Made by a program: the position numbers and the translations under genes | Notes under the pieces: generated by a model | Seen by the model: only the letters and a program-made list of their open reading frames with translations | Database searches by the model: none | Told to the model about the DNA's origin: nothing | Shown: piece by piece, positions 1 through 42,466 of the stretch | Numbering within the stretch: the stretch's first letter is position 1 | Layout: each line of letters starts with the position of its first letter | NCBI GenBank assembly: GCA_914767715.1 | Contig: OU612072.1 | Span: forward strand, 16,184,001 to 16,248,000 | DNA: 64,000 nt | From: Membranipora membranacea | Lineage: Eukaryota > Bryozoa > Gymnolaemata > Cheilostomatida > Membraniporidae | Direction: 5' to 3'

Positions 1-2527
1 CTTTTTTTAAACAAACGGTCTAACAAAACCAAACTATCACCGCGGAAGAATATATTTGCAGCCGGACGATGGGCTCATTCTGATAACCAATATGTCTTGT
101 ATGTCATCATGTCAGCAGCATGGCATAAGATTTCTCCAGATTCATTCTAGGTCTGTCAAATGGGGTCCCACCAGCAGGGACATCCCTTTAGGAAAATTTT
201 TGTGTTTGTGTATTAATTTCTGTCACAGCAGGTATTATTTTATTTGCTGATTTATCGGGGTGATCCAAGCTGTGTGTGTCAATACTAGCACGCTTTTTTG
301 AAATTTTTAATAATATTGACAATTTTTGGTTCTTTTTGAAGAGTTGTCTTCTCATCGCCCAATTTCTGAGCAATTTTGGAATGTTTTCAATTGTGGAGAA
401 AACAACAATTTGTCTTCCTCTGTCCTAGTTAATTGTTGGCCAATGAGAAGATCCGTGAGAAGACAGCTTCAAACATTTGCAAAAATAGTGGCGATTTTTA
501 AAAACATTCAGACTACATCGCATAGGTAGACATCTATTCACGAATGTTGGCACTGCTAAAAACAGCCAAAGAATGTCGTTGTACAAACTGACCTTGGAAG
601 TTTATAATTAGAGTAAATTGAATACTCGTTGGCCTGAAAATCCTAAACATTCATCAGGAAAATGTCTTAAATAAATACATTCGTGTGTAGGGTGCTACAT
701 ACTCAGTGTTCTGAGTCAGTGGGAACCGGTGGGAACTGAGTTCTCGCGCAAAAATATAGATGGGGAACCTTTAGGACACAGTTCCCATTGAATTCTGTTC
801 AAAAAGAGTCTGAAGTTGTCTCTTTTGACCAGATATCAATCGTACTATTACAGATCCATATTTCTGCATAATTTGATCTAGAAATTGCAAAAGATTCTCA
901 AAACTATTCTCAACCCAGAGTGTAGAGTACCCGCAAAGAAAATAGTCCACTTAGACCACTGTACATACTACATAGTGAGTAAGATAAATGAAGCATGTTG
1001 CTACCATAAATTACATGAAAAAAATGAAGGAGGAAGCAGAAAATGATGAACGCAAATTTCGCAGAATTTGGTAGGATTGAATGATATTAATTCATAAGGC
1101 TGGTTCGATTCACTGACAAAATAATGTATGAAATATATTTGAAAAGGCTGAGCTGCCTAGGTTTGTGCTGAATGATGATTTAAATATTGAACTGTACTGG
1201 GACTGGCGTTTCCTGGCTATTGTTTGGGTTCACTATCCATTGCAACCAGGTGTAGTGTAGTGTTCTGAACATAATTACAGACAAGTTGGACAGCTCATCT
1301 CATGTTGGCTTTGATTGATTTGGTCTGTGATGCAGTGAAATTACCATCTCACACAGGGCTGACTGCCAGGCTTTGAACAGGTAGAAAATTTGCCACAACA
1401 TGTGCACACTCACTCTGATCTGAGTATTGATGCTTATAATCTCAAATTTAGAGAACAACTGATGGCATCAGTGGTGCTCATCTTAGATGTAAACCGGATT
1501 TGTCTTTTGGAGATCAAGTTATAGGGTTAGAACACCAATCTTTCATGCAGTTAATTGATTCCATTTCTTGAGCTTGTCAATCAGTTTATGCATATCATTT
1601 GCCAGTTATTTTACATTTTTTTCATAAAAGAATTTATGAATTTGAGCTTGACATTGTCAATATTTCTACAACAACTCAACTTCAAAAGAAGCCAATCAGC
1701 AGAAGCAGAAGCTTGTAACGAGGTCTTGAAGTTGCCCTGTCAGTATTTGCCCGAAGGAACAGAAATTCCGCGGGTAACATCAGGGTTTCTATTGTGATAT
1801 TGTGAGTCAATCTCCTTCAAGCTTTGATGGCATGAATATAGCGCTGTGTGTAAATGTTTTTACTATAATTCGCCGGTTCCAATGTCATCTTGCACATGTT
1901 CTCTACTGATACTACTTTATCCACAGAGTTTTGAAAGTAGTATTGAACAAAAAAAAGTTTTCCATTTGACAAAATTCAGTAAACTTCAAAACATAGGGCA
2001 GTAAATCATTTAGAAAATCCTTGAGTTTGCTAATAAAATGGTTTATTTGGATAAATTCAGCTGGAATTTTATATAATTTGCATTTTTTTTTATCAACATG
2101 ACTCACAAAGTGAAAACTTACAGTGAGGCCATTCACAGTCAGTTTGTGTTTTAAGGATAGAAAACAATGGTTATGTAATAAAAACAGGAGGATGTTCATT
2201 TACAAAGGAGGCGATATGTGGTCCGGGTCAAGAAAGAATGTGAAGTTCCATGTTGTCGATTGGAGATCATGGTTGCCACAGCAGCAAGAGGCCTTTCTGG
2301 TCTGTTTGATGTATCTAAAACAAAGAGTGAGTGTGAAATTCAATGTCTGATTACAGAGTCACCTAGTTAAATTGGAAATTGTGCAATTTTCAAGCTGCTT
2401 TCAAGGTGAAAAGAAAGCCTTAATTTTTGATAAAGTCAGACAAACACAAATAAACTTATATGAATACATATGTAACTCACTCTTCTATTGAAGTTGCATC
2501 ACCACCTGCTGCTGAACATCCGATGAT

Positions 2528-2992
2528 CTAGTGATGTGATCTTTTCTCAGATTTCCGAGGAGTACTAACTCTGCAAGGATTATTAGATGCCCAAGGAGTA
2601 CTAAATGTGCAAGGAGCATGAGATGGTTTAAGAGTTGCAGATGTCCAGGGAGTACTAGATCTGCAAGGATTATTAGATGCCCAAGGAGTACTAAATGTGC
2701 AAGGAGCATGAGATGGTTTAAGAGTTGGAGATGTCCAGGGAGTTCTAGATCTGCAAGGATTATTAGATGCCCAAGGAGTACTAAATATGCAAGGAGCATG
2801 AGATGGTTTAAGAGTGTGAGATGTCCAGGGAGTACTAAATTTGCATATCCAAGGAGTTCTAAATCTGCAAGAAGAAGCAGGTCTCCAAGGTGTACTCGGT
2901 CTTGGAGAATTTTTCAGATACCGGGGAGGCCTTGCAATAGCTACAGAGACCGCCACCAAACAAAACACAGATGATATTGCCATGGCCTTCAT
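2528..2992 (-). CDS. Secreted Cys/Pro/Trp repeat peptide, copy P1 (154 aa)
   Basis: Predicted small secreted protein of unknown function. The start is the ATG at 2,992, because a splice acceptor (CAG, 3,012-3,014) lies just upstream and upstream in-frame methionines fall in the intron. Residues 1-20 form a signal peptide (MKAMAISSVFCL..., cleavage likely after a small residue before RPPRY). The mature part opens with a Pro/Arg-rich stretch, then Cys-containing TPW motifs and three 30-residue repeats of the form C-x3-TPWTS-x-TLKPSHAPC-x-FSTPWASNNP; Cys spacing alternates 17 and 11 residues. It ends in a basic His-tailed tail. Gene structure: exon 1 about 3,428-3,377 (UTR), intron 3,376-3,012, coding exon 3,011-2,481, downstream exon from 2,314. 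I recognise no family. Antimicrobial, venom or structural roles are only guesses. Confidence 0.72.
   Translation of the reverse strand: MKAMAISSVFCLVAVSVAIARPPRYLKNSPRPSTPWRPASSCRFRTPWICKFSTPWTSHTLKPSHAPCIFSTPWASNNPCRSRTPWTSPTLKPSHAPCTFSTPWASNNPCRSSTPWTSATLKPSHAPCTFSTPWASNNPCRVSTPRKSEKRSHH
2577..2846 (-). repeat. 90 bp tandem repeat inside peptide gene P1 (3 units)
   Basis: Three head-to-tail units of exactly 90 bp starting at 2,577, 2,667 and 2,757, each encoding one 30-residue peptide repeat. Because units are in frame and lack stops, other frames (a Leu-rich sense frame and an Arg/Cys antisense frame) are also open; I treat those as shadows. Confidence 0.9.
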
Positions 2993-3449
2993 GACGAGTG
3001 CGGCACCAGCTCTGAAAAGAGAAAAAAGTTCATTTGAATCCAAATCTTAATCTATCATCACTTGGTCAATTTGAAAGATACCACTTAAGTTTATTGCCCA
3101 AATAAGATGCTCAAATCAGTGTGAGCTGAATATTAGCACAGTTATAACCTTCATTAACATTGTTGTTAAATTCATTTACATTGAATAGCAAATTATCAGT
3201 AAAATTTAAATAACAACTCAATTATATCTTCTTTGATAGTTTCATTGTGAAATGGTGTCTGGAAATCTGTTGTGGAGGTAGTTTTATTAAATGATAGTTT
3301 TTTGAATATTCAGCGGCTCAAAAAAGTAAACAACTATACATCTTTGAAACTTAGTATGCATTCAGACTATACTCACTCCTTTATCAGAAATGTTGATGAA
3401 CTCGATATGCTGCAAGCAGGATAATGTGACATCTGTAAGCAAACCATCC

Positions 3450-3458
3450 CTTTATATA
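3450..3458 (-). promoter_or_regulatory. TATA box of peptide gene P1
   Basis: On the minus strand this reads TATATAAAG, about 75-80 bp upstream of a GTGAGT donor (3,376-3,371) that closes a short untranslated exon 1. The same box, spacing and donor are kept in all five intact copies. The transcription start is inferred about 25-30 bp downstream. Confidence 0.65.
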
Positions 3459-5458: not shown

Positions 5459-8400
5459 CTCAGTTCATTAAAAGTATTTTGGCTTCAAGTTGCTGTAGAG
5501 TTATCTTCTCATTTTCATACAATTTTGTTCTTATAATGAACTAGAAGTTATCCCACTTTGCCCAATTTCCCATATCCCGTCCTTGTATCCGGCTAAACAT
5601 AGAGAATTCTTTACAGAAGAAGAATCTAGGATCAAAAATTGAATGTCTCCAAACATTAGAAATTTTATCAGCATACATGTTCTTCCTGTATACAGGTATT
5701 ATTTCAAACTCAAAGCACCAAGCAGAACAATCAATTGTGTTAATGTCGTTAAAAACTCTCCATTAACCCTTGCAAGATAATAATAGAATAGATAGCGATA
5801 GATATTTGATTCACAATTTCCAATCCAAATTCAATACTACCGATTTTAAATTTTGCTGGACTGGGTAAAAGTTTTTGAGCGGTTGGATTAAATGAGGTCG
5901 CGTAATTCATCTACTGGTACTTGAATCAACCCACCTTAACCAGTGATATGAACAAAGTTAGGGCCAGGGATACCCATCAAACAATTATAAAATATTTTAA
6001 TCCTGCGAAATACACAAGAAGGCCTGACACTATTACATTTCAAACAAGGATTAATCGAGGAAACAATGTCAATTAAAAATTAGTGAAGTTTATCAGAGTT
6101 GTTTCAAAAATAAATTACTGTCTTACAAGCAAAATGTTTAAGAGTTGATTGGGCAGTGCTTCTGATTTGAGCAAAAATAAGTGTCACATTCAAATCCCAA
6201 ATCCTTCCCTCATTGAAGCCCTAATAGTAGTAGTATTGATATTATAGAGGCATATTATATCAGATATAAAATATACGATTTTGATCAGGTAAACACCAGA
6301 GAGGGCACGAGAGGGATTTCATTTTTCAGCTTAATTTGAGCTAGAATATTCCCAAATGCAGTCACCAATAGCTCCTTGGCCATATGCCATCAACAGCTTG
6401 AAGTCAATATGGTTAGTTGGGTATCCAGATAAATCACAGTATGAAAGGTATTTACTATGGTACCTACCTATCATGAGGATATTATTGTTCACTGTGTTGA
6501 GGGCTGTGATGCCATACAGAGAGCAAGGACTTACAGGTAGCGCTGTCACGATTTTGTATTTGGCTAGGACTGCCTCGATTCTGATTGTGGCATCGATTTT
6601 CACGATTTCGATTTTTCGAATTTACACCTTCCCTTTCAACCAACCCTTGTCCCAATTTCGATTTTCGACCATAGTAACCGTGACAATGAATTTACCGCTG
6701 TGCAATCGACTTCAGCTGTCACCTTATTAAATCGCGATAATGAGGTGTGATCGATTAGGTATTCCCGATATGAATCGTATCCTGACAGCACTAGTTACAG
6801 GGGTCTTAGCCCATGATTATATTCAAAATTATATTGCGCTAGCCTAAATTATTAGCCATTGTTTTGTAAGCCCAATGCCAGCAACGACTCCTGGTATGCC
6901 TACCTGTAAATATGAGAGCACTACATAGCAAATCATTTGATTGTAGGACTAAACAGAGAGACATTGCGACAACGCAAACCAACACAATTATGAGATTATG
7001 TCCACTTAATCTTGTCACCAATCAATAGCTCAAGCGCCTGTTTTTAGAACAATTTTAATTGGCCACACAATTACACATCATTATGAAAAGCAGCACATGA
7101 TAACCCTGAGAATATGAGAAGAATGCTGTGTGTACAGCCTCTGCTTACAATTGAAATTGCTAGAAAAATAAATTATGCTGAGTTAAACATTGTCCAGCTC
7201 CTATCTCAATTTTAACTTATGAATCCCTATGCTCAGTACTAAGACATGCACATATTTTGGTAACCTTCCCTTTATCATAATATATATATTGCAATTCAGT
7301 ATTCATAGATCAGTTACTTGCAGAAATCTGTAATCCAAGAGTTACTCATGCCTGCCTATTGTCAAGCCCTGGGGACTAACCAAACCCATGACCTCCAATA
7401 CATGCGTGCTTAGCGACTGACACTCTTAGCGTATACCACCAACTCTTAAATCAATTTCATTCTTCTTAGCACGCTTTCTGCATTAATAAATGATTAAAAA
7501 TCGATTAAAATCAGATGACATATCACACGCCACATCCTGAAGCATGGGCGGGAAAATACTAGTTGCCTTAGGGGCTAGGCTGCAATATCTGCGCCCATTT
7601 GCTCTCAGTTTGCAGGCAGGTCGAGGCACACCTGGGGGTCCAACCAAACCCCAGCAGTCAGTAGACTTCAGTGGGACTCGAACCCATGACCTTCAACATT
7701 TGCATGCTGAAGGGGCGGCGCTCTAACCAACTGAGCTACCTCCTACTCCTATAATAATAATAATAATCGAAGCAACTAAAATATAATCTATTTTAGCAAC
7801 AATTTCTAAATTTAAAGATGCATTGCCGTTTGACTAAATAAGCCATCACAAAAGTACAAAGAAAATATTTTCGGGCTGACAGAGTTAGTGTATTGTGGAG
7901 GCATGTGTCATATGAGATTATAATAATATTAATTACCATTCACGTCATGGTATCACTGGCTTGCTATGCTTGGCTCAGGGAGGCTCTACTGGTCGTTGGG
8001 CAAGTCAATTGAATAGTATAAAACTCATGCATTTTCCCCGACAATCTGTTGTTTGACAAAGGTGAGCTAACCTATATATACATGGAAATTACAACTTGAC
8101 TACACATGAATAAAAAATCTTGTTGAGATTAAACATTGAAATAAGATGGGAAACCAAACAAGACTAATTGTGCCCATGACTCATTTCCACATTTGATGTT
8201 GAATGATGAGATTTTCTGCTAAATTACTCTATTCGAATCAGCACCATCAATAATTTATTTTATAATCAGAATATTTTGTAAGATGTAGTATTAACAATTT
8301 ATAATCTTTGGTATTAACAGCAAAGATTGTTAAGAGTATTAGGCAAACTGTAGTGGATTATAATTGTACTTGTGGCATTTGGGACAAAGGATTATTGTGC

Positions 8401-10590: not shown

Positions 10591-12680
10591 CTTTGGACGT
10601 TTTTAACAGTGCTTCGAAACCGAGTACCCCTTGGATATCTGCTACTCCTTGCAGATTTCCTTCTCCTTGGAAATGCAGATTTAGTACTCCCTGGACATCT
10701 CACACCCCAAAAACATCTCATGCTCCTTGTAGAGTTAGGTGTATACCTCTCCTTATATAACTGTTTATTTGTATACAGCTGTCTCTATGAAAGAATAAGA
10801 CCTGCTCGTCAGCTTGTAAACAGCTTGAGTATCACAAAAATTACCAAATTAGCTAGGATACTCTGTAGTTAGATAACAAATTTCACCCTCACTCTTTGTT
10901 TTAGATACATCAAACAGACCAAGAAGGCCTCTTGCTGCTGTGGCAACCAAGATCTACAACCAACAACTTGGAATTTCGCATTCTTTCTTGATATGGACCA
11001 CATATCGACTCCTTTGATGATAAACACCCTCCTGCTTTTATTATATTATAACCATTTTATAGAAACCCAAACTGACTGTGCATGGCTTCACTGAAAGTTT
11101 TCTCTTTGTGCGTCATGTTAAATAAAACACAATGCAAATTTTATCAAACTCACCTCAGTGACCTTATTGAAATCCATTAGTATGATTAAAACAGTTTCTT
11201 TCTATTTTGGTTGGAGAATATGTTAAGAAAGGACATGTTGGATTGCAGAAGTATCTATAGGTATTCAAATCAGTTGATGCACTTCTGTTTTGAAGTGGTT
11301 GTAAGTAATAGCAAAGCCATGCTATGAATAGCCCTTTGATTGATTGATGAACGTGACTTACTTTGTCAATCAATTGGTTTTGAAATGTTGAGGCTGCATT
11401 TTTCCAAATTTGATAGAATACCACATTATCTCATCACGTGGTAAACTCACATCCATTTTTGCTGATCTGCAAATGACATAAGAAAGTGAGGTTGCTATTT
11501 AGATCAAACCTAGGCAAATCAGCCGTTTTAAATATTTTTTATACATTTGTAACTAAATCAACCAAGCCTCATGAATCATTATCATTTAATCCTACCTAAT
11601 GTTGTTCACTTGTTTTATTATTTGCCACTCTCTGTTTCTTCTTTTCTTTTTTCATCTTATTCACGCAATTTATGATACCATGATTTCATTATCCTACACA
11701 CTATATAGTATGTAACACCTTACCACTTATATCTTTTTATTCAAGTCATTTTTTGTATCTATGTTAATGTGTGTGAGGTCAACAAGTTATTTTTAATTTG
11801 CTTTAATTATAGACTTTTAGAAAACCTCAATTAATATAATAATTAAATAAATTTAGGCAAATTGATCCATCGGTCGAATAATCTCATTTTGTGATCATAA
11901 TTTCCAAAATATGTGTAAAAATGTCAAATACATAATGTTCTCTTTTACAAATGGAAAATCAAATCTATATAAAAGTGATATAACTTGATCAACAGAAAAC
12001 TGCAAGTCAATGAGCTTTGTAGGAAACACATAATGTGTTATGAACATGGGCCCTTTTAATGTTGAGCTTAGTGAGTTGCCTATTTGCCACCGTCTAACAA
12101 TGATGTACTATGATGAAAGTGAAAATTAAATTGTGAAAACTGCAAGTAAATTATCATGATGAGGATGTAAATACATATAGTTGCACAGTTGCAGTTTGAG
12201 ATGCTTTACCTCGAATTTGAGAAATATGTTAAAGGTTAACGACCCCTTTTTTGAAAGTACAAATCACCTCTTTTTTTTGAAAAAGTGGATAAAAATTGAA
12301 GCGGAGAAATGAAAAAGTTTTACCACTCAAAGAAACTTAAAATCATTGCCTTTCACTTATCACCATCAATTTATCACAATAATGATAGAAACTACATTTG
12401 TGGGTAGTCTGGGTATTTAGTTTTCCACACAAACACACTCAACTTAACTCCACCAACTTCACACCGACCCAGACACGTAAGATTTGTGTTTTGATATTTT
12501 GTTTAATCACCACTGTCTCTTTTGCGCAAAATGTCAGCACTCTCGTCAACTTGCGTCAACAACCGTTTCAAAATCTGTGAAATATGTGAATTTCATCAAA
12601 ACCTCAGTTTCAACAATGTTTCGTCAATTTAGCAAGAAAATTGATATTGCAATTTGATTCCTTATGATAATATTATTACA
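10590..12680 (+). repeat. Old degraded module R1
   Basis: Near-identical to R2 (28,880-30,980). Within it are weakly preserved blocks of the young module: peptide repeat, the downstream CCCGN exon, an AATAAA at 11,121-11,126, and a block near 12,240-12,300 resembling the module sequence GACCCTATTTTTGAAAGTAC. It is an older duplicate that has diverged. Apart from the truncated peptide gene I see no coding sequence. Confidence 0.7.
10595..10760 (+). pseudogene. 5'-truncated secreted repeat peptide gene, copy R1
   Basis: The reading frame keeps KPSTPWISATPC, a CRFSTPWTSHT segment and SHAPC, clearly the same family, but the signal peptide, leader and tandem repeats are missing. The break coincides with the module junction at about 10,590. 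Compared with R2 it has lost about 14 bp before its end, changing the C-terminus. No TATA box or start codon context is retained, so I call it a pseudogene. Confidence 0.75.
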
Positions 12681-12689
12681 GTTGCAGCG

Positions 12690-14478: not shown

Positions 14479-14924
14479 GTGAGATGTAGGCTCCCTTCTT
14501 CACCAAGACCACTTAAAACCACTTATTTCATAAAACAGTAGTCTGAGTTATTTGAGGAAACTCACCTGCACAACCTGTCACCTGTCACCACCAAAATCGA
14601 TGGTTGTTGCTAAGATGCAAAACAATATCAATTTGGAAGTTGGCCTAGCAGTTTCAATTCTATCATGTGCCAGTACTGTGAGGTGTTGCATTAAGTTACA
14701 TTACTCTTGACGGTATTGTCGTTTAGGTTTGGCTAGGTTCATTATTTTAATCCATAGATCAAGTGGATTATTCTATTGAATGAGCATTTGCTTGTGATCA
14801 CAATACCAAATGAAACAAAAGTGATCGCTTTTAAATTCAATTAAAAGGAATTTGATCGGCTGCAAGCAGTTATGTTGTTTTTTACATGTACACCCTGCTT
14901 AATGTGCTGACCAAATGATTGAAA

Positions 14925-15175
14925 AAGGTTGATTGAAATCCGATGTCTTATCACTCGCCCATCCCGAGGCATGGGCGGCGAAATACTATTGCCTTATTAA
15001 CGAGGCCGCAATGTCTGCGCCAATTTGCTCTCTGTTTGCAGGCAGGTCGGAGCACACCTGGGGGACCAACTTATCCCCAGTAGAAGATTGACTGCAGTGG
15101 GATTCGAACCCACGACCTTCAACACTTGCGTGTTGAAGTCTGGCGCTCTAACCAACTGAGCATACTCCTACTCCT
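14925..15175 (-). mobile_element. tRNA-derived SINE, first family
   Basis: Minus-strand element with B box GGTTCGAATCCCACTGCAG and the same body as the copies at 7,500 and 44,704. Shared between this copy and Q3, so it was part of the module before duplication. A truncated remainder persists at 31,018-31,066. Confidence 0.8.
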
Positions 15176-17955: not shown

Positions 17956-18389
17956 TAACATGACTCACAAAGTAAAAAACTTACAGTGAGGCCATGCACA
18001 GTCAGTTTGTGTTTTAAGGATAGAAAACAATGGTTATGTAATAAAAACAGGAGGATGTTCATTTACAAAGGAGTCGATATGTGGTCCGGGTCAAGAAAGA
18101 ATGTGAAGTTCCATGTTGTCAGTTGGAGATCATGGTTGTCACAGCAGCAAGAGGCCTTTATGGTCTGTTTGATGTATCTAAAACAAAGAGTGAGTGTGAA
18201 ATTCAATGTCTGATTACAGAGTCACTTAGTTAAATTGGAAATTGTGCAAATTTAAGCTGCTTTCAAGGTGAAAAGAAAGCCTTAATTTTTGATAAAGTCA
18301 GACAAACACAAATAAACTTATATAAATACATATGTAACTCACTCTTCTATTGAAGTTGCATCACCACCTGCTGCTGAACATCCGATGAT

Positions 18390-18854
18390 CTAGTGATGTG
18401 ATTTTTTCTCAGATTTCCGAGGAGTACTAACTCTGCAAGGATTATTAGATGCCCAAGGAGTACTAAATGTGCAAGGAGCATGAGATGGTTTAAGAGTTGG
18501 AGATGTCCAGGGAGTTCTAGATCTGCAAGGATTATTAGATGCCCAAGGAGTACTAAATGTGCAAGGAGCATGAGATGGTTTAAGAGTTGGAGATGTCCAG
18601 GGAGTTCTAGCTCTGCAAGGATTATTAGATGCCCAAGGAGTACTAAATATGCAAGGAGCATGAGATGGTTTAAGAGTTGGAGATGTCCAGGGAGTACTAA
18701 ATTTGCATATCCAAGGAGTTCTAAATCTGCAAGAAGAAACAGGTCTCCAAGGTGTACTCGGTCTTGGAGAATTTTTCAGATACCGGGGAGGCCTTGCAAT
18801 AGCTACAGAGATCGCCACCAAACAAAACACAGATAATATTGCCATGGCCTTCAT
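18390..18854 (-). CDS. Secreted Cys/Pro/Trp repeat peptide, copy P2 (154 aa)
   Basis: Intact paralogue with the same layout as P1: acceptor at 18,874-18,876, start ATG at 18,854, signal peptide ending ISVAIA, Pro/Arg-rich leader (RPPRYLKNSPRPSTPWRP), then three 30-residue repeats at 18,439-18,708. Repeat variants here include CRARTPW and CRSRTPW. Exon 1 about 19,290-19,239, intron 19,238-18,874, coding exon 18,873-18,343, downstream exon from 18,177. The stop lies 47 bp before the exon end, so the downstream exon can be 3' UTR without being an obvious nonsense-decay target. The gene region shares substitutions with P3 (a FSLFRAGTALV reading upstream), unlike P1. Confidence 0.72.
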   Translation of the reverse strand: MKAMAILSVFCLVAISVAIARPPRYLKNSPRPSTPWRPVSSCRFRTPWICKFSTPWTSPTLKPSHAPCIFSTPWASNNPCRARTPWTSPTLKPSHAPCTFSTPWASNNPCRSRTPWTSPTLKPSHAPCTFSTPWASNNPCRVSTPRKSEKKSHH

Positions 18855-19311: not shown

Positions 19312-19320
19312 CTTTATATA
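19312..19320 (-). promoter_or_regulatory. TATA box of peptide gene P2
   Basis: TATATAAAG on the minus strand with a GTGAGT donor at 19,238-19,233 downstream, as in the other copies. Confidence 0.65.
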
Positions 19321-24414: not shown

Positions 24415-24423
24415 TATATAAAG
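24415..24423 (+). promoter_or_regulatory. TATA box of peptide gene Q2
   Basis: TATATAAAG in a CATATATAAAGGG context, 82 bp upstream of the GTGAGT donor at 24,497 that ends the untranslated first exon. Confidence 0.65.
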
Positions 24424-24880
24424 GGATGGTTTGCTTACAGATGTCACATTATCCTGCTTGCAGCATATCGAGTTCATCAACATTTCTGATAAAGGAGTGA
24501 GTATAGTCTGAATGTATACTAAGTTTCAAAAATGTATATTTGTTTACTTTTTTGAGCCGCTGAATATTCAAAAAACTATCATTTAATAAAACTACCTCCA
24601 CAACAGATTTCCAGACACCATTTCAAAATGAAACTATCAAAGAAGATATAATTGAGTTGTTATTTAAATTATACTGATAATTTGCTATTCAATGTAAATG
24701 AATTTAACAACAATGTTAATGAAGGTTATAACTGTGCTAATATTCAGCTCACACTGATTTGAGCATCTTATTTGGGCTATAAACTTAAGTGGTATCTTTC
24801 AAATTGACCAAGTGATGATAGATTAAGATTTGGATTCAAATGAACTTTTTTCTCTTTTCAGAGCTGGTGCCGCACTCGTC

Positions 24881-25345
24881 ATGAAGGCCATGGCAATATC
24901 ATCTGTGTTTTGTTTGGTGGCGATCTCTGTATCTATTGCAAGGCCTCCCCGGTATCCGAAAAATGCTCCAAGACCGAGTACACCTTGGAGACCTGTTTCT
25001 TCTTGCAGATTTAGAACTCCTTGGATATGCAAATTTAGTACTCCCTGGTCATCTCCAACTCTTAAACCATCTCATGCTCCTTGCAGATTTAGTACTCCTT
25101 GGGCATCTAATAATCCTTGCAGATTTAGAACTCCCTGGACATCTCCAACTCTTAAACCATCTCATGCTCCTTGCACATTTAGTACTCCTTGGGCATCTAA
25201 TAATCCTTGCAGATCTAGAACTCCCTGGACATCTCCAACTCTTAAACCATCTCATGCTCCTTGCACATTTAGTACTCCTTGGGCATCTAATAATCCTTGC
25301 AGAGTTAGTACTCCTCGGAAATCTGAGAAAAAATCACATCACTAG
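24881..25345 (+). CDS. Secreted Cys/Pro/Trp repeat peptide, copy Q2 (154 aa)
   Basis: Intact plus-strand paralogue. Exon 1 about 24,445-24,496; intron 24,497-24,861 (GTGAGT/TTTTCAG); coding exon 24,862-25,392; donor GTGAGT at 25,393; downstream exon from 25,559. Signal peptide of about 20 residues (MKAMAISSVFCLVAIS...SIA), then RPPRYPKNAPRP and three 30-residue repeats (about 25,032-25,301) with Cys at alternating 17 and 11 residue intervals. The end is STPRKSEKKSHH. One repeat has CRFSTPW where others have CTFSTPW or CIFSTPW; most differences fall beside Cys. Extracellular or secreted location is inferred from the signal peptide; function is unknown. Confidence 0.75.
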   Translation: MKAMAISSVFCLVAISVSIARPPRYPKNAPRPSTPWRPVSSCRFRTPWICKFSTPWSSPTLKPSHAPCRFSTPWASNNPCRFRTPWTSPTLKPSHAPCTFSTPWASNNPCRSRTPWTSPTLKPSHAPCTFSTPWASNNPCRVSTPRKSEKKSHH

Positions 25346-25558
25346 ATCATCGGATGTTCAGCAGCAGGTGGTGATGCAACTTCAATAGAAGAGTGAGTTA
25401 CATATGTATTCATATAAGTTTATTTGTGTTTGTCTGACTTTATCAAAAATTAAGGCTTTCTTTTCACCTTGTAAGCAGCTTGAAAATTGCACAATTTCCA
25501 ATTTAACTAGGTGACTCTGTAATAAGATATTGAATTTCACACTCACTCTTTGTTTTAG

Positions 25559-25675
25559 ATACATCAAACAGACCAGAAAGGCCTCTTGCTGCTGTGGCAA
25601 CCATGATCTCCAACCGACAACATGGAACTTCACATTCTTTCTTGACCCGGACCACATATCGACTCCTTTGTAAAT
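25559..25675 (+). other. Conserved downstream exon of peptide gene, with Cys-rich frame
   Basis: Begins after a TTTGTTTTAG acceptor and is present in every copy. One frame reads YIKQTRKASCCCGN, HDLQPTTWNF and DHISTPL before a stop. Between the young and the old (R) modules at least five of the changes in this frame are synonymous third-position changes, which hints at past coding selection. However, no donor in the peptide exon joins it in the STPW frame, so in the present gene it is more simply 3' UTR. An alternative product using a shifted frame is possible but unproven. Confidence 0.4.
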
Positions 25676-27168
25676 GAACATCCTCCTGTTTTTATTATAT
25701 AACCCTTGTTTTCTATCCTTAAAACACAAACTGACTGTGCATGGCCTCACCGTAAGTTTTCACTTTGTGAGTCATGTTAAATATAACACAATGCAAATTA
25801 TATAAACGTCCAGCTGAATTTATCCAAATAATTATACCATTTTATTAGCAAACTCAATGATTTTCGAGTTGATTTCCTGCCCTATGTTTTGAAGTTTACT
25901 GGGTTTTGTAAAATGGAAATTTTTTTTCGTTCAATACTACTTTCAAAACTCTGTGGATAAAGTAGTATCAGTAAGAGAACATGTGCAAGATGACATTGGA
26001 ACCGGGAAATCATAGTAAAAACATTTACACACAGCGCTATATTCATGCCATCAAAGCTTGAAGGAGATTGACTCACATCTTGAGATGATAAAAGCTTAGG
26101 TGTCACCTTCACAGCTAAGTACACCAAAAATATAAAATCACAATAGAAACCCTGATGTTACCTGCGGAAATTCTGTTCCTTCGGACAAATACTGACAGGG
26201 CAACTTCAAGACCTCGTTACAAGCTTCTGCTTCTGCTGATTGGCTTCTTTTGAAGATGTGTTGCTGTAGAAATATTGACAATGTCAAGCTCAAATTCATA
26301 AATTCTGTTAAGAAAAAAAATGTCAAATAACTGGCAAATGATATGCATAAACAGATTGACAAGCTGAAGAAATAGAATCAATTAACTGCATGAAAGAGTG
26401 GTGTTCTCGACAAATTACTTGATCTCCAAAAGTCAAATCCGGTTAAGATCTAAGATGAGCACCACTGATGCCATCAGTTCTACTCTCAATTTGAGATTAT
26501 AAGTATTCATACTCAGATCACAATGAGTGTCCAATTGTCGTGGCAAATTTTGTACATGTTCAAAGCCTGCCAGTCAGCCCTGCGTGAGATAGCAATCTCA
26601 CTGCATCACAGACCAAATCAATCAAAGCCAACCCGAGATGAGCTGTCCATGTTGTCTGTATTATCAGCATGTTCAGAACACTGCACTACACCTGGTTGCA
26701 ATGGATAGTGAACCCAAACAATAACCAGGAAACGCCAGTCCCAGTACAGTTCAATATTTGAATCATCATTCAGCACAAACCTAGGCAGATCAGCCTTTTC
26801 AAATAAATTTCATACATTATTTTGTCAGTGAATCGAACCAGCCTTATGAATTATTATCATTCAATCCTACCAAATTCTGCAAAATTTGCGTTCGTCATTT
26901 TCTGCTTCCTCCTTCCTTTTTCGTCATTTAATTTATGGTAGCAACATGCTTCATTTATCCTACTCACTATATAGTTTGTACAGTGGTCTAAGAGGACTTT
27001 TTTCTTGGTGGACACTCTACACTCTGGGTTGAGAATAGTTTTGAGAATCTTTTGGAATTTCTAGATCAAATTATGCAGAAGTAATGATCTGTAATAGTAT
27101 GATTGATATATGGTCAAAAGAGACAATTTCACACTCTTTTTGAACAGAATTCAGTGGGAGCTGCGTCC

Positions 27169-28889: not shown

Positions 28890-29096
28890 TTTTAACAGTG
28901 CTTCGAAACCGAGTACCCCTTGGATATCTGCTACTCCTTGCAGATTTCCTACTCCTTGGAAATGCAGATTTAGTACTCCCTGGACATCTCACACCCCAAA
29001 AACATCTCATGCTCCTTGTAGAGTTACATATCCTCGGGTGTATACCTCTCCTTATATAACTGTTTATTTGTATACGGCTGTCTCTATTAAAGAATA
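28890..29096 (+). pseudogene. 5'-truncated secreted repeat peptide gene, copy R2
   Basis: Frame with KPSTPWISATPC, KCRFSTPWTSHT, SHAPC and a diverged tail RVTYPRVYTSPY up to a stop at 29,094-29,096. Signal peptide and leader are absent; the upstream sequence is the reverse complement of module DNA near 16,380. Only one repeat-like unit is left. Probably not expressed as a secreted protein. Confidence 0.72.
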
Positions 29097-29204
29097 AGAC
29101 CTGATCGTCAGCTTGTGAACAGCTTGAGTATCACAATAATTACCAAATTAACTAGGATACTCTGTAGTTAGATAATGAATTTCACACTCACTCTTTGTTT
29201 TAGA

Positions 29205-29320
29205 TACATCAAACAGACCAAGAAGGCCTCTTGCTGCTGTGGCAACCAAGATCTACAACCAACAACTTGGAATTTCGCATTCTTTCTTGATATGGACCAC
29301 ATATCGACTCCTTTGATGAT
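29205..29320 (+). other. Cys-rich downstream exon, old module
   Basis: After a TTTGTTTTAG acceptor the frame reads YIKQTKKASCCCGN, QDLQPTTWNF, DHISTPL and then continues because the usual stop is altered. It is the divergent comparison copy for the exon at 25,559, with conservative amino-acid changes and several synonymous ones. Confidence 0.4.
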
Positions 29321-30985
29321 AAACACCCTCCTGCTTTTATTATATTATAACCATTTTATAGAAACCCAAACTGACTGTGCATGGCTTCACTGAAAGATTT
29401 CTCTTTGTGAGTCATGTTAAATAAAACACAATGCAAATTTTATCAAACTCACCTCAGTGACCTTATTGAAATGCATTAGTATGATTAAAACAGTTTCTTT
29501 CTATTTTGGTTGGAGAATATTCTAAGAAAGGACATGTTGGATTGCAGAAGTATCTATAGGTATTCAAATCAGTTGATGTACTTCTGTTTTGAAGTGGTTG
29601 TAAGTAATAGCAAAGCCATGCTATGAATAGCCCTTTGATTGATTGATGAACGTGACTTACTTTGTCAATCAATTGGTTTTGAAATATCGAGGCTGCATTT
29701 TTCCAAATTTGATAGAATACCACATTATCTCATCACGTGGTAAACTCACATCCATTTTTGCTGATCTGCAAATGACATAAGAAAGTGAGGTTGCTATTTA
29801 GATCAAACCTAGGCAAATCAGCCGTTTTAAATATTTTTTATACATTTGCAACTAAATTAACCAAGCCTCATGAATCATTATCATTTAATCCTACCTAATG
29901 TTGTTAACTTGTATTATTGTTTGCCACTCTCTGTTTCTTCTTTTCTTTCTTCATCTTATTCACGCAATTTATGATGCCATGATTTCATTATCCTACACAC
30001 TATATAGTATGTAACACCTTACCACTTATATCTTTTTATTCAAGTCTTTTTTTGTATCTATGTTTATGTGTGTGAGGTCAAGTTATTTTTAGTTTGCTTT
30101 AATTATAGACTTTTAGAAAAGCTCAATAAAGATAATAATTAAATAAATTTAGGCAAATTAATCCATCGGTCGAATAAACTCATTTTGTGATCATAATTTC
30201 CAATATATGTGTAAAAATGTCAAATACTTAATGTTCTCTTTTACGAATGGAAAATCAAATCTATATAAAAGTGATATAACTTGATCAACAGAAAACTGCA
30301 AGTCAATGAGCTTTGTAGGAAATACATAATGTGCTATGAACATGGGCCCTTTTAATGTTGAGCTTAGTGAGTTGCTTATTTGCCACCGTTTAACAATGAT
30401 GTGCTATGATGAAAGTGAAAATTAAATTGTGAAAACTGCAAGTAAATTATCATGATGAGGATGTTAATACATATAGTTGCACAGTTGCAGTTTGAGATGC
30501 TTTACCTCGAATTTGAGAAATCTGATAAAGGTTAACGACCCCATTTTTGAAAGTACAAATCACCTCTTTTTTTTGAAAAGGTGGATAAAAATTGAAGCGG
30601 ATAAATGAAAAAGTTTTACCTCTCAAAGAAACTTAAAATCATTGCCTTTCACTTATCACCATCAATTTATCACAATAGTGATAGAAACTACATTTGTGGG
30701 TAGCCTGTTTATTTAGTTTTCCACACAAACACACTCAACTTAACTCCACCAACTTCACACCTACCCAGAAACGTAAGATTTGTGTTTTGACATTTTGTTT
30801 AATCACCACTGTCTCTTTTGCGCAAAATGTCAGCACTCTCGTCAAGTTACGTCAACAACCGTTTTAAAATCTTTGAAATTTGTGAATTTCATCAAATCCT
30901 CAGTTTCAACAATGTTTCGTCAATTTAGCAAGAAAATTGATATTGCAATTTGATTCCTTATGATAATAATATTACAGTTGCAGAG

Positions 30986-31017: not shown

Positions 31018-34000
31018 GGTTGAAGTCCAGCGCTCTAACCAACTGAGCCTACTCCTACTCCTGATTCCATGTTAAGTTACTGAATGTTATTGTTATTTTT
31101 AGCCATAGCAGGGCATTGAAACTTGAAACACTCAAGCTATGGCCCGGTTCATTAAGATTAAATAAAACTTCATAATCAGTTTTATAATGTGAACAGTGTT
31201 ATACTACTATAAAAATCAAAAAGGTACCTAACTAACCTTCAGACTATATCATTTGAAACAAAATTGTACATACATTTTGCCTGCAAAAAGAGGCGTAGTT
31301 GTTTTTATTTTGTCTAAAGATAAAATAAAATAGATAACTAACTAACTATAAAATCTGTATGCCCTGTGTACATGTAATTTGCAGTATAGTTGAGTTACGT
31401 AACTAACCAGTGGTAACAATGCTCTACTTTACTAATTGCGTTGGTTTAGTTGGCTAATGTTGACACGTTGTGATCGATAGGGCGAATAGCAAGAGTCAAT
31501 TCGGACAAGCTAGTAATCTGTCTGTAGCTGTATGCTTCGCCTACTGGTTCTACTCTTGTCTTAACCTCACAATAACTTGCCTATGTGAATTCACGTGTGA
31601 GTGCGAAAACTGACTTTGATATGAACAGGATTGGTTTCAAAGATATTACTCTCTTGTTATCCCAGTGCAGACAGACCATGTGTGTATACCTATAGTTCAG
31701 CTTTTTTTATACAAACAGTCTAACAAAACCAAACTATCACCGCGGAAGAATATATTTGCAGCCGGACGATGGGCTCATTCTGATAACCAATATGTCTTGT
31801 ATGTCATCATGTCAGCAGTATGGCATAAGATTTGTCCAGATTCATTCTAGGTTTGTCAAATGGGGTCCTACCAGCAGGGACATCCCTTTAGGAAAATTTT
31901 TGTGTTTGCGTATTCTTATGTCACAGCAGGTATTATTTCATTTGCTGATTTATCGGGGTGATCCAAGCTGTGTGTGTCAATACTAGCACGCTTTTTTTAA
32001 ATTTTTAATTATATTGACAATTTTTGGTTCTTTTTGAAGAGTTGTCTTCCCATCGCCCAATTTCTGAGCAATTTTGGAATGTTTTCAATTTTGGAGAAAA
32101 CAACAATTTGTCTTCCTCTGTCATAGTTAATTGTTGGCCAATGAGAAGATCCGTGAGAAGACAGCTTCAAACATTTGCAAAAATGTTGGCGATTTTTAAA
32201 AACATTCAGACTACATCGCATAGGTAGATTCTATTCACGAATGTTGGCACTGCTAAAAACAGCCAAAGAATGTCGTTGTACAAACTGACCTTGGAAGTTT
32301 ATAATTAGAGTAAATTGAATACTCGTTGGCCTGAAAATCCTAAACATTCAACAGGAAAATGTCTTAAATAAATAAAGTGTTCTGAGTCAGTGGGAACCGG
32401 TGGGAACTGAGTTCTCGCGCAAAAATATAGATGGGGAACCTTTAGGACAGAGTTCCCATTGAATTCTGTTCAAAAAGAGTCTGAAGTTGTCTCTTTTGAC
32501 CAGATATCAATCGTACTATTACAGATCCATATTTCTGCATAATTTGATCTAGAAATTGCAAAAGATTCTCAAAACTATTCTCAACCCAGAGTGTAGAGTA
32601 CCCGCAAAGAAAATAGTCCACTTAGACCACTGTACATACTACATAGTGAGTAAGATAAATGAAGCATGTTGCTACCATAAATTACGTGAAAAAAAGGAAG
32701 GAGGAAGCAGAAAATGATGAACGCAAATTTCGCAGAATTTGGTAGGATTGAATGATATTAATTCATAAGGCTGGTTCGATTCACTGACAAAATAATGTAT
32801 GAAATATATTTGAAAAGGCTGAGCTGCCTAGGTTTGTGCTGAATGATGATTTAAATATTGAACTGTACTGGGACTGGCGTTTCCTGGCTATTGTTTGGGT
32901 TCACTATCCATTGCAACCAGGTGTAGTGTAGTGTTCTGAACATAATTACAGACAAGTTGGACAGCTCATCTCATGTTGGCTTTGATTGATTTGGTCTGTG
33001 ATGCAGTGAAATTACCATCTCACACAGGGCTGACTGCCAGGCTTTGAACAGGTAGAAAATTTGCCACAACATGTGCACACTCACTCTGATCTGAGTATTG
33101 ATGCTTATAATCTCAAATTTAGAGAACAACTGATGGCATCAGTGGTGCTCATCTTAGATGTAAACCGGATTTGTCTTTTGGAGATCAAGTTATAGGGTTA
33201 GAACACCAATCTTTCATGCAGTTAATTGATTCCATTTCTTGAGCTTGTCAATCAGTTTATGCATATCATTTGCCAGTTATTTTACATTTTTTTCATAAAA
33301 GAATTTATGAATTTGAGCTTGACATTGTCAATATTTCTACAACAACTCAACTTCAAAAGAAGCCAATCAGCAGAAGCAGAAGCTTGTAACGAGGTCTTGA
33401 AGTTGCCCTGTCAGTATTTGCCCGAAGGAACAGAAATTCCGCGGGTAACATCAGGGTTTCTATTGTGATATTGTGAGTCAATCTCCTTCAAGCTTTGATG
33501 GCATGAATATAGCGCTGTGTGTAAATGTTTTTACTATAATTCACCGGTTCCAATGTCATCTTGCACATGTTCTCTACTGATACTACTTTATCCACAGAGT
33601 TTTGAAAGTAGTATTGAACAAAAAAAAGTTTTCCATTTGACAAAATTCAGTAAACTTCAAAACATAGGGCAGTAAATCAACTAGAAAATCCTTGAGTTTG
33701 CTAATAAAATGGTTTATTTGGATAAATTCAGCTGGAATTTTATATAATTTGCATTTTTTTTTATCAACATGACTCACAAAGTGAAAACTTACAGTGAGGC
33801 CATTCACAGTCAGTTTGTGTTTTAAGGATAGAAAACAATGATTATGTAATAAAAACAGGAGGATGTTCATTTACAAAGGAGTCGATATGTGGTCCGGGTC
33901 AAGAACGAATGTGAAGTTCCATGTTGTCGGTTGGAGATCATGGTTGCCACAGCAGCAAGAGGCCTTTCTGGTCTGTTTGATGTATCTAAAACAAAGAGTG

Positions 34001-34198
34001 AGTGTGAAATTCAATGTCTGATTACAGAGTCACCTAGTTAAATTGGAAATTGTGCAATTTTCAAGCTGCTTACAAGGTGAAAAGAAAGCCTTAATTTTTG
34101 ATAAAGTCAGACAAACACAAATAAACTTATATGAATACATATGTAACTCACTCTTCTATTGAAGTTGCATCACCACCTGCTGCTGAACATCCGATGAT

Positions 34199-34660
34199 CT
34201 AGTGATGTGATTTTTTCTCAGATTTCCGAGGAGTACTAACTCTGCAAGGATTATTAGATGCCCAAGGAGTACTAAATGTGCAAGGAGCATGAGATGGTTT
34301 AAGAGTTGGAGATGTCCAGGGAGTTCTAGATATGCAAGGATTATTAGATGCCCAAGGAGTACTAAATATGCAAGGAGCATGAGATGGTTTAAGAGTTGGA
34401 GATGTCAAGGGAGTTCTAGATCTGCAAGGATTATTAGATGCCCAAGGAGTACTAAATATGCAAGGAGCATGAGATGGTTTAAGAGTGTGAGATGTCCAGG
34501 GAGTACTAAATTTGCATATCCAAGGAGTTCTAAATCTGCAAGAAGAAACAGGTCTCCAAGGTGTACTCGGTCTTGGAGAATTTTTATACCGGGGAGGCCT
34601 TGCAATAGCTACAGAGATCGCCACCAAACAAAACACAGATATTATTGCCATGGCCTTCAT
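34199..34660 (-). CDS. Secreted Cys/Pro/Trp repeat peptide, copy P3 (153 aa)
   Basis: Intact paralogue, one codon shorter than P2 in the leader (RPPRYKNSPRP). Exon 1 about 35,098-35,047, intron 35,046-34,680, coding exon 34,679-34,152, downstream exon from 33,985. Start at 34,660, directly after the splice acceptor. Three repeats at 34,248-34,517; variants include CRSRTPLTS (Trp changed to Leu) and CISRTPW, so one otherwise invariant Trp is lost here. All length differences between copies are multiples of three, consistent with purifying selection on the frame. Confidence 0.72.
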   Translation of the reverse strand: MKAMAIISVFCLVAISVAIARPPRYKNSPRPSTPWRPVSSCRFRTPWICKFSTPWTSHTLKPSHAPCIFSTPWASNNPCRSRTPLTSPTLKPSHAPCIFSTPWASNNPCISRTPWTSPTLKPSHAPCTFSTPWASNNPCRVSTPRKSEKKSHH

Positions 34661-35119
34661 GACGAGTGCGGTACCAGCTCTGAAAAGAGAAAAAAATTCA
34701 TTTAAATTCAAATCTTAATCTATCATCACTTGGTCAATTTGAAAGATACCACTTAAGTTTATTGCCCAAATAAGATGATCAAATCAGTGTGAGCTGAATA
34801 TTAGCACAGTTATAACCTTCATTAACATTGTTGTTAAATTCATTTACATTGAATAGCAAATTATCAGTAAAATTTAAACAACAACTCAATTATATCTTCT
34901 TTGATAGTTTCATTGTGAAATGGTGTCTGGAAATCTGTTGTGGAGGTAGTTTTATTAATAATGATAGTTTTTTGAATATTCAGCGGCTCAAAAAAGTAAA
35001 CAAATATACATTTTTGAAACTTAGTATACATTCAGACTATACTCACTCCTTTATCAGAAATGTTGATGAACTCGATATGCTGCAAGCAGGATAATGTGAC
35101 ATCTGTAAGCAGACCATCC

Positions 35120-35128
35120 CTTTATATA
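35120..35128 (-). promoter_or_regulatory. TATA box of peptide gene P3
   Basis: TATATAAAG on the minus strand, with the GTGAGT donor at 35,046-35,041. Confidence 0.65.
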
Positions 35129-40274: not shown

Positions 40275-40283
40275 TATATAAAG
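40275..40283 (+). promoter_or_regulatory. TATA box of peptide gene Q3
   Basis: TATATAAAG, 82 bp before the GTGAGT donor at 40,357. Confidence 0.65.
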
Positions 40284-40740
40284 GGATGGTTTGCTTACAG
40301 ATGTCACATTATCCTGCTTGCAGCATATCGAGTTCATCAACATTTCTGATAAAGGGGTGAGTATAGTCTGAATGCATACTAAGTTTCAAAAATGTATATT
40401 TGTTTACTTTTTTGAGCCGCTGAATATTCAAAAAACTATCATTTAATAAAACTACCTCCACAACAGATTTCCAGACACCATTTCAAAATGAAACTATCAA
40501 AGAAGATATAATGGAGTTGTTATTTAAATTATACTGATAATTTGCTATTCAATGTAAATGAATTTAACAACAATGTTAATGAAGGTTATAACTGTGCTAA
40601 TATTCAGCTCACACTGATTTGAGCATCTTATTTGGGCTATAAACTTAAGTGGTATCTTTCAAATTGACCAAGTGATGATAGATTAAGATTTGGATTCAAA
40701 TGAACTTTTTTCTCTTTTCAGATCTGGTGCCGCACTCGTC

Positions 40741-41295
40741 ATGAAGGCCATGGCAATATCATCTGTGTTTTGTTTGGTGGCGATCTCTGTAGCTATTGCA
40801 AGGCCTGCCTGGTCCCTGAAAAATGCTTCAAGACCGAGTACACCTTGGAGACCTGTTCCTTCTTGCAGATTTAGAACTCCTTGGATATGCAAATTTAGTA
40901 CTCCCTGGACATCCCACACTCTTAAACCATCTCATGCTCCTTGCATATTTAGTACTCCTTGGGCATCTAATAATCCTTGCAGATCTAGAACTCCCTTGAC
41001 ATCTCCAACTCTTAAACCATCTCATGCTCCTTGCATATTTAGTACTCCTTGGGCATCTAATAATCCTTGCAAATCTAGAACTCCCTGGACATCTCCAACT
41101 CTTAAACCATCTCATGCTCCTTGCACATTTAGTACTCCTTGGGCATCTAATAATCCTTGCAGATCTAGTACTCCCTGGACATCTCCAACTCTTAAACCAT
41201 CTCATGCTCCTTGCACATTTAGTACTCCTTGGGCATCTAATAACCCTTGCAGAGTTAGTACTCCTCGGAAATCTGAGAAAAAATCACATCACTAG
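40741..41295 (+). CDS. Secreted Cys/Pro/Trp repeat peptide, copy Q3 (184 aa, four repeats)
   Basis: The longest member: one additional 90 bp unit gives four 30-residue repeats (about 40,891-41,250). Exon 1 about 40,305-40,356; intron 40,357-40,721; coding exon 40,722-41,342; downstream exon from 41,519; AATAAA at 41,730. Signal peptide as in the other copies (ISVAIA before the cleavage site), but the leader is altered to RPAWSLKNASRPSTPWRP, losing the PPRY motif. Variants include CRSRTPLTS, CKSRTPW and CRSSTPW. The change of unit number by exactly one repeat points to unequal exchange or slippage within the array. Confidence 0.75.
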   Translation: MKAMAISSVFCLVAISVAIARPAWSLKNASRPSTPWRPVPSCRFRTPWICKFSTPWTSHTLKPSHAPCIFSTPWASNNPCRSRTPLTSPTLKPSHAPCIFSTPWASNNPCKSRTPWTSPTLKPSHAPCTFSTPWASNNPCRSSTPWTSPTLKPSHAPCTFSTPWASNNPCRVSTPRKSEKKSHH

Positions 41296-41729
41296 ATCAT
41301 CGGATGTTCAGCAGCAGGTGGTGATGCAACTTCTATAGAAGAGTGAGTTACATATGTATTTATATAAGTTTATTTGTGTCTGTCTGACTTTATCAAAAAT
41401 TAAGGCTTTCTTTTCACCTTGTAAGCAGCTTGAAAATTGCACAATTTCCAATTTAACTCGGTGACTCTGTAATCAGACATTGAATTTCACACTCACTCTT
41501 TGTTTTAGATACATCAAACAGACCAGAAAGGCCTCTTGCTGCTGTGGCAACCATGATCTCCAACCGACAACATGGAACTTCACATTCTTTCTTGACCCGG
41601 ACCACATATCGACTCCTTTGTAAATGAACATCCTCCTGTTTTTATTACATAACCATTGTTTTCTATCCTTAAAACACAAACTGACTGTGCATGGCCTCAC
41701 TGTAAGTTTTCACTTTGTGAGTCATGTTA

Positions 41730-41735
41730 AATAAA
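41730..41735 (+). terminator. Polyadenylation signal of peptide gene Q3
   Basis: AATAAA about 210 bp into the downstream exon. P2 keeps the same signal, while Q2 has the weaker AATATA at the matching place. Confidence 0.4.
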
Positions 41736-42466
41736 ACACAATGCAAATTATATAAAATTCCAGCTGAATTTATCCAAATAAACCATTTTATTAGCAATCT
41801 CAAGGATTTTCTAGTTGATTTACTGCCCTATGTTTTGAAGTTTACTGAATTTTGTCAAATGGAAAACTTTTTTTCGTTCAATACTACTTTCAAAACTCTG
41901 TGGATAGAGTAGTATCAGTAGAGAACATGTGCAAGATGACATTGGAACCGGCAAATTATAGTAAAAACATTTACACACAGCGCTATATTCATGCCATCAA
42001 AGCTTGAAGGAGATTGACTCACATCTTGAGATGGAAAAGCTTAGGTGTCACCTTTGCAGCTAAGTACACCAAAAATATAAAATCACAATAGAAACCCTGA
42101 TGTTACCCGCGGAATTTCTGTTCCTTCGGGCAAATACTGACAGGGCAACTTCAAGACCCCGTTACAAGCTTCTGCTTCTGCTGATTGGCTTCTTTTGAAG
42201 TTGAGTTGTTGTAGAAATATTGACAATGTCAAGCTCAAATTCATAAATTCTTTTATGAAAAAATTGTAAAATAACTGGCAAATGATATGCATAAACTGAT
42301 TGATAAGCTCAAGAAATGGAATCAATTAACTGCATGAAATATTGGTGTTCTAACCCTATAACTTGATCTCCAAAAGTCAAATCCGGTTTAGATCTAAGAT
42401 GAGCACCACTGATGCCATCAGTTCTTCTCTAAATTTGAGATTATAAGTATTAATACTCAGATCACA

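Follow-up and report, generated by a model that had tools for sequence, protein, structure and literature searches.

A cluster of small genes on chromosome 8 of Membranipora membranacea encodes what we tentatively regard as a real, lineage-restricted family of secreted, largely unstructured polycations, which are composed of Cys-x-x-x-Thr-Pro-Trp modules and may form part of a matrix, coat or adhesive. Judged from the gene and protein sequences, the product is probably expressed and secreted; for a protein of this type a role in a matrix, coat or adhesive appears evenly balanced against other functions. The family would be restricted to this lineage by the searches made here and looks like an apparently undescribed bryozoan secreted protein. 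The cluster also illustrates cleanly how inverted repeats can host the amplification and reshuffling of a gene family, and its compactness, clear gene structure and regular repeats make it testable with existing RNA-seq and a proteome. A preliminary description of this DNA is confirmed as an observation and partly supported in its interpretation.

The gene cluster

The window, i.e., the whole stretch of 64 kb that was analysed, is a part of chromosome 8. It contains five full copies (A to E) and two 5'-truncated copies (T1 and T2), just as counted in the preliminary description. The copies listed there are real, but the cluster extends further than was given, reaching about 17 kb past the left edge of the window. 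As a whole it comprises six intact, one frameshifted and four truncated copies in about 59 kb. A search of the genome yielded no match outside the cluster at E ≤ 0.001 and at E ≤ 10 among the best candidates scored. The arms of the cluster are inverted, and inverted copies swap sequence (recombining arms). Gene copies have multiplied within the cluster, as had been proposed, and the number of repeat units also differs, copy A having three and copy E four. The features are as follows (window coordinates; CDS with stop included):

2200–2314, minus strand: copy A exon 3, conserved first part up to the in-phase TAA
2528–2992, minus strand: copy A CDS, 154 residues (exon 2, 2481–3011)
3377–3458, minus strand: copy A TATA box (3450–3458), initiator (3423–3429) and exon 1 (3377–3427)
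about 10610–11151, plus strand: truncated copy T1, repeat exon from acceptor-like AACAG/TGCT, exon 3 from 10905
18063–18177, minus strand: copy B exon 3, conserved first part
18390–18854, minus strand: copy B CDS, 154 residues (exon 2, 18343–18873)
19239–19320, minus strand: copy B TATA box (19312–19320), initiator (19285–19291) and exon 1 (19239–19289)
24415–24496, plus strand: copy C TATA box (24415–24423), initiator (24444–24450) and exon 1 (24446–24496)
24881–25345, plus strand: copy C CDS, 154 residues (exon 2, 24862–25392)
25346–25392, plus strand: copy C exon 2 open tail past the TAG, same frame, 15 codons + 2 bases
25559–25673, plus strand: copy C exon 3, 37 codons + TAA, continuing the frame of the exon 2 tail
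about 28899–29450, plus strand: truncated copy T2, exon 3 from 29204
33871–33985, minus strand: copy D exon 3, conserved first part
34199–34660, minus strand: copy D CDS, 153 residues (exon 2, 34152–34679)
35047–35128, minus strand: copy D TATA box (35120–35128), initiator (35093–35099) and exon 1 (35047–35097)
40275–40356, plus strand: copy E TATA box (40275–40283), initiator (40304–40310) and exon 1 (40306–40356)
40741–41295, plus strand: copy E CDS, 184 residues (exon 2, 40722–41342)
41509–41623, plus strand: copy E exon 3, conserved first part
2548–2845, 18421–18707, 25028–25314, 34243–34516 and 40888–41264: arrays with a period of 90 nt

The encoded protein

All six intact copies encode a signal peptide-like start followed by a mature chain of 133–164 residues. 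The N-terminus shows a hydropathy peak of 2.94 over 12 residues and small residues at positions −3 and −1; by hydropathy and the −3/−1 rule only, it has the hydrophobic core and cleavage-site residues of a secreted protein, so that the signal peptide claimed earlier is supported as a signal-peptide-like N-terminus. The mature chains are strongly basic (pI 10.8–11.4, net charge +18 to +20) and contain 18–20% Pro, 7–10% Arg, 7–10 Trp and 0–1 Tyr; Cys is present in even number (8 or 10), Glu once, and Gly, Gln and Asp are absent in all six. The Cys residues are found at positions 22, 30, 48, 60, 78 and so on, interleaved with Pro repeats, and their gaps are 7, then 17, 11, 17, 11 and so forth in all intact copies, which bears out the reported alternation of 17 and 11. 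The Cys-x-x-x-Thr-Pro-Trp modules are arranged head to tail with linkers of fixed length, one of the TPW motifs having Leu in place of Trp in copies D and E. The Pro/Arg-rich leader of the preliminary description exists, but it is only about 21 residues long and already contains an STPW motif. AlphaFold2 (alignment of 6 rows) predicted a helix at residues 6–19 only, with a mean pLDDT of 35.

In a matrix, coat or adhesive role, the protein would be secreted via its signal-peptide-like N-terminus, and disulphides would link its modules inside one chain or from chain to chain. Its charges and tryptophans would bind anionic polymers (those of the chitin-protein cuticle, of mucus or of kelp polysaccharide), and gene copies and repeat copies together would raise its dose.

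The main rival is a host-defence peptide, where the mature chain or its cleavage fragments act on microbes via the Arg/Lys charge and Trp, and where the cluster is an expanded immune family. The high pI and net charge, the many Trp and the 8 or 10 Cys are in line with this, as are the small gene with its TATA box and initiator and the multiplied copies. We nevertheless consider it somewhat unlikely: the chain is long, repetitive and without a predicted fold, and the only two dibasic sites fall among the last 9 residues, with none between the repeats. Neuropeptide precursors have dibasic cleavage sites between their repeated peptides, and the location of the two sites led us to reject this assignment. 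A reproductive, larval or other secreted protein, e.g., of an egg coat or a settlement secretion, would also be of the secreted type, repetitive, multiplied and, by the searches made, lineage-restricted; we regard it as quite doubtful, and none of the evidence distinguishes it from a role in a matrix, coat or adhesive.

Variation among the copies

Of the 27 changes that separate the six intact copies, 24 are nonsynonymous, as compared to an expected fraction of 0.80 (P = 0.18), the null being the noncoding mutation spectrum and two changes in one codon being counted separately. Across all seven full copies, CDS and introns are similarly variable (29/459 versus 27/530 sites, P = 0.41). Positive selection had looked striking in a count of five copies (pN/pS 2.9; 21 of 22 variable codons nonsynonymous), a signal that was gone with six copies and the null. 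The changes among the intact copies look neutral and adaptive evolution is unsupported by these counts; the term "rapidly evolving", if meant as a claim of selection, is not supported. A dN/dS near 1 between the copies had been named beforehand as speaking against the first reading, and the outcome does count against it; however, the copies are young and their Cys and Thr-Pro-Trp (C/TPW) codons are mostly kept relative to the truncated copies. The CDS indels among the intact copies are of 3 and 90 nt, and within the modules synonymous variation is seen in the Thr and Pro codons. At its beginning the mature chain is more variable than the introns (9/62 versus 27/530, P = 0.008, one of several comparisons), which favours host defence; the CDS as a whole shows no sign of positive selection, which speaks against it.

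The same figures bear on the explanation that there is no working protein gene at all, i.e., that a transcribed or silent minisatellite-bearing segment was spread by segmental duplication and that the open frame is a by-product of the 90-nt period. The period-90 repeats are far beyond chance, and the length of the open frame by itself is weak evidence because this period holds other frames open too (142–167 aa). One of the seven full copies is frameshifted, the CDS varies like introns with a nonsynonymous share at chance expectation, and the chance of finding zero stops among 27 random changes is 0.30. Against this stands that in six of the seven full copies the ATG and the signal-peptide-like start lie outside the repeats, that the TATA, initiator, donor and acceptor sites match among full copies, and that the C/TPW codons are kept and exon 3 takes up the open frame in phase. 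All in all, we think this explanation unlikely.

Between the six intact and the four truncated copies 0–2 of 12 C/TPW codons are changed and 11–16 of 27 others (24 non-independent pairs, P 0.0026–0.083, motif picked after seeing the data). The older truncated branch keeps traces of a longer ancestral protein. T1 and T4 have a common open frame upstream of the repeats; T2 and T3 have indels in this region, and the truncated copies were therefore rejected as separate genes. An Innexin assignment of the T1 frame (17.3 bits versus a cut-off of 25) was not repeated with the T4 frame and was dropped.

The frame beyond the stop codon

Past the TAG the repeat frame stays open and runs in phase into exon 3, a continuation that the preliminary gene structure had missed. 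The 37 codons of exon 3 are 90% conserved relative to T2, the intron 75%. Among the seven full copies all 7 changes in exon 3 are nonsynonymous, and exon 2 tail plus exon 3 are as variable as introns (8/162 versus 27/530, P = 1.0). The third-position bias relative to the truncated copies is weak (7/11, P = 0.039 for the chosen frame) and, in our reading of the alignment, would fit an antisense open frame (25382–25759, minus strand) equally. On these grounds we rejected exon 3 as coding today; it may be a relic or a hidden C-terminus. It is conceivable, if highly improbable, that the TAG is not the end of every product and that readthrough or alternative processing gives a longer form with the Cys-containing C-terminus of exon 3, the short form being a cross-linkable polycation with which the outer coat of a kelp-dwelling bryozoan is built or anchored on the anionic algal surface, and the family a bryozoan invention with no counterpart elsewhere.

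Promoter and splice sites

The TATA box (TATATAAAG), already described as shared, is identical in all seven full copies of the cluster and so is the TCACATT initiator, the A of which lies 29 bases past the first T of TATAAA (copy C). The two GTGAGT donors and both acceptors likewise show no difference among the seven. Within 500 nt of exon 3 AATAAA is absent in copies C and H. Promoter constraint is not claimed, the variable sites from TATA to exon 1 being 2/86 versus 83/1221 in noncoding DNA (P = 0.12; versus introns alone P = 0.41). Because the apparent constraint was gone, we slightly lowered our still fairly high confidence in an expressed, secreted protein. A count that left off the last two bases of exon 1 gave 1/84 (P = 0.037) and excluded one variable base in copy E.

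Comparison with known proteins

In the collections searched no homologue of the repeat protein was found, which agrees with the earlier view that it belongs to no known family. With the copy C repeat protein, and likewise with the exon 2 tail joined to exon 3, no Pfam-A family reached its curated cut-off, antimicrobial families included, which argues against host defence; the Waglerin family (PF08121) was rejected with 15.8 bits versus a cut-off of 25, over 11 residues. The literature, as titles and abstract starts, contained no paper on the family among the matches listed.

Keratin-associated and small proline-rich proteins of vertebrate skin are products of clustered small genes, with Cys/Pro-rich repeats that are cross-linked and vary in number. 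They work in a similar way but are intracellular and without signal peptide, unlike this family, and no search made here related them to it. DOPA-type byssus and cement proteins of mussels and tubeworms are secreted, basic, repetitive and by definition Tyr-rich. They too may be compared in how they work; the family differs in lacking Gly and in having at most one Tyr per mature chain in the six intact copies, and was rejected as DOPA-type for its Tyr content.

The preliminary description had drawn an analogy to arasin 1 from the spider crab Hyas araneus, an antimicrobial peptide of 37 residues with 32% Pro and 19% Arg. Its N-terminal part is of the Pro/Arg type, its C-terminal part is distinct and holds 4 Cys that pair in two disulphides, and it is likened to penaeidins (PMC3543460, in the portion of the article drawn on). 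The family is likewise cationic, rich in Pro and Arg and even in Cys number. However, as far as that portion describes arasin 1, the analogy fails on length (133–164 residues), composition (18–20% Pro, 7–10% Arg) and layout, Cys and Pro being interleaved in repeats with no separate Cys part, which also weighs against host defence. Secreted cysteine-rich repeat proteins (SCREPs), described in the context of animal venom peptides with several disulphides (PMC6262176, again the portion drawn on), share with the family the secretion, which is predicted here, and the repeated Cys-containing units, but here no fold is predicted and each module carries one Cys and one TPW motif.

Copies of the gene and their number

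The gene cluster is real and well observed. The copy coordinates of the preliminary description were borne out on checking, and when the protein of copy C was compared with the whole genome (339,339,785 bases in 18 contigs, the eighth sequence having 27,174,903 bases) at E ≤ 0.001, every one of the 12 matches fell within C8:16166914–16225175 (C8, chromosome 8). They represent seven full copies, F being split into two matches, and four copies truncated at the 5′ end. The published assembly of Membranipora membranacea is given as 339,374,674 bp in 11 chromosomes and 21 scaffolds, with 27.17 Mb for chromosome 8 (PMC10290214).

Features of the cluster and its surroundings (copies from the copy C protein search)
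C8:16184001–16248000: the window
Left of the window: full copies F and H
Inside the window: full copies A, B and D (minus strand), C and E (plus strand)
Left of the window: truncated copies T4 and T3
Inside the window: truncated copies T1 and T2
Window 49035–59180, plus strand: exons of a Nab2-type CCCH zinc-finger gene; PF14608 above cut-off at 58338–58667 and below cut-off at 58950–59180

With a query spanning promoter and exon 1, 13 matches were obtained in the genome at E ≤ 10, namely the seven full copies and six 40-base partials at the same places. The peptide of exon 3 and the exon 2 tail (the open frame past the TAG) gave 18 matches at the same threshold, none of them outside the 11 copies. 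Six of the seven full copies are intact, because F (about C8:16169450–16170005) has a one-base frameshift in its signal-peptide codons, the sole full copy so affected; B, its partner in a recent segmental duplication, is intact. E and F have four repeat units, the other five full copies three.

A very recent segmental duplication links −16.4 to −1.9 kb with 16.6 to 31.0 kb (window coordinates; match 98.5–99.3%), and the inverted arms of the full copies match at about 91–97%. From promoter to intron 1, nine sites split minus- from plus-strand copies and one splits H and C from the rest, whereas downstream of exon 3 no site splits by strand and 17 split H and C from the rest (contrast with the 5′ part, P = 2 × 10⁻⁶). 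Copy E therefore combines a plus-type 5′ part with a minus-like 3′ part, which shows that inverted copies have exchanged sequence.

Gene anatomy and protein

The seven full copies do not differ from each other in TATATAAAG, in the initiator TCACATT or at any splice site (two donors, each GTGAGT, and two acceptors). Exon 1 of copy C (51 nt) is without ATG; the entire CDS lies within exon 2, and exon 3 is next. AATAAA occurs 220–269 nt past the exon 3 start in five of the seven, with none within 500 nt in C or H. Variability from the TATA box to the exon 1 end does not differ significantly from that of noncoding positions (2/86 versus 83/1221 sites, P = 0.12), and constraint there is therefore not shown.

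Each of the six intact copies encodes a signal-peptide-like start of 20 residues and, after it, 133–164 mature residues (pI 10.8–11.4, net charge +18 to +20). Gly, Gln and Asp are absent from the mature chain, which has a single Glu, 0–1 Tyr, 24–30 Pro, 7–10 Trp and 8 or 10 Cys; an N-glycosylation sequon is present in copy E alone. The chain can be read as modules Cys-x-x-x-Thr-Pro-Trp, each joined to the next Cys by a linker of 1, 5 or 11 residues (Cys gaps 7, 17, 11, 17, 11 and so on). Within the modules, Thr codons (ACT/ACA/ACC) and Pro codons (CCT/CCC) vary synonymously. AlphaFold2, run on a 6-row alignment, modelled a helix at residues 6–19 alone (mean pLDDT 35).

The analogy with arasin drawn earlier does not hold, since the bryozoan proteins differ from arasin in length, composition and layout. 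A search of 5.8 billion proteins with the repeat protein, in a collection of unchecked animal coverage, gave 8 candidates and zero matches at E ≤ 10, and neither a PDB match nor a Pfam family above cut-off was obtained. The cluster is apparently lineage-restricted. Composition and design favour a matrix, coat or adhesive-type secreted polycation that could be cross-linked by disulphides. The signal-peptide-like start would direct export; beyond that step we infer that disulphides would join the modules within or between chains. A role in host defence, also inferred, comes second to the matrix, coat or adhesive one.

Selection among the copies

Rapid evolution had been proposed, but adaptive change is not shown: 24 of 27 single-site changes among the six intact copies are nonsynonymous, and the mutation spectrum in noncoding sequence of these copies would lead one to expect a fraction of 0.80 (P = 0.18). 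With 27 random changes, a stop would be absent with probability 0.30. In the seven full copies, CDS and introns have 29/459 and 27/530 variable sites, respectively (P = 0.41). Differences among the young full copies are indistinguishable from drift. The first ~21 mature residues (window 24941–25005 and equivalents), most variable in copy E, vary more than introns (9/62 versus 27/530), with P = 0.008 as one among several comparisons.

The comparison of intact with truncated copies reaches further back in time. Over 39 codons, those for Cys and Thr-Pro-Trp differ in 0–2 of 12 and the others in 11–16 of 27 (P 0.0026–0.083 in 6 × 4 = 24 non-independent pairs, the motif having been defined after inspection).

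The frame past the TAG

The interest lies in a bryozoan family of putative secreted proteins with a C-terminus lost or hidden. Past the TAG, the repeat frame of exon 2 is open for 15 codons to the donor, with two bases left over, and exon 3 keeps its phase for 37 codons, then TAA. The translation of the exon 2 tail is identical in all seven full copies. Between C and T2, 101 of 112 bases of the exon 3 frame agree, gap-free, versus 124/165 in intron 2 (P = 0.0016) and 120/155 past the TAA (P = 0.008). Six pairs (A, C, E with T1, T2) agree at 88–90% in exon 3, 73–75% in intron 2 and 76–79% after the exon 3 frame; T4 has a deletion within exon 3. Of the 11 consensus differences in exon 3, seven are at third codon positions and two each at first and second positions; five of the nine changed codons are synonymous.

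Within the seven full copies, however, all seven exon 3 changes are nonsynonymous, and exon 2 tail plus exon 3 are as variable as introns, which counts against a present-day coding role of exon 3. The simplest reading is that a stop was already present when multiplication of the full copies began and that exon 3 is untranslated today, although it may still be reached by readthrough or alternative splicing. The tail and exon 3 peptide gave no Pfam family, no protein in a large collection and only two chance-level PDB entries (E = 0.7 and 9). In the truncated copies, homology to the full ones starts at AACAG|TGCT, which resembles an acceptor, so this may be the site of an ancestral intron.

Genomic setting

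Right of the cluster lies the gene with Nab2-type CCCH zinc fingers (PF14608, 61.5 bits), which we take to be ZC3H14. A dispersed element, perhaps a tRNA-derived SINE, is found at window 7488–7750 and, at 81–82% match, at 14913–15175 and 44708–44970; close to it is a tRNA-like Rfam match (15089–15167, minus strand; 30.5 bits versus gathering 29). The DNA pieces L009 and L010 lie to the left of the cluster. A helicase C-terminal domain (PF00271) is seen at L009 8639–8953, and a 290-residue open frame spanning the L009/L010 joint (L009 9966 to L010 835) recalls, by eye, a BED-finger transposase.
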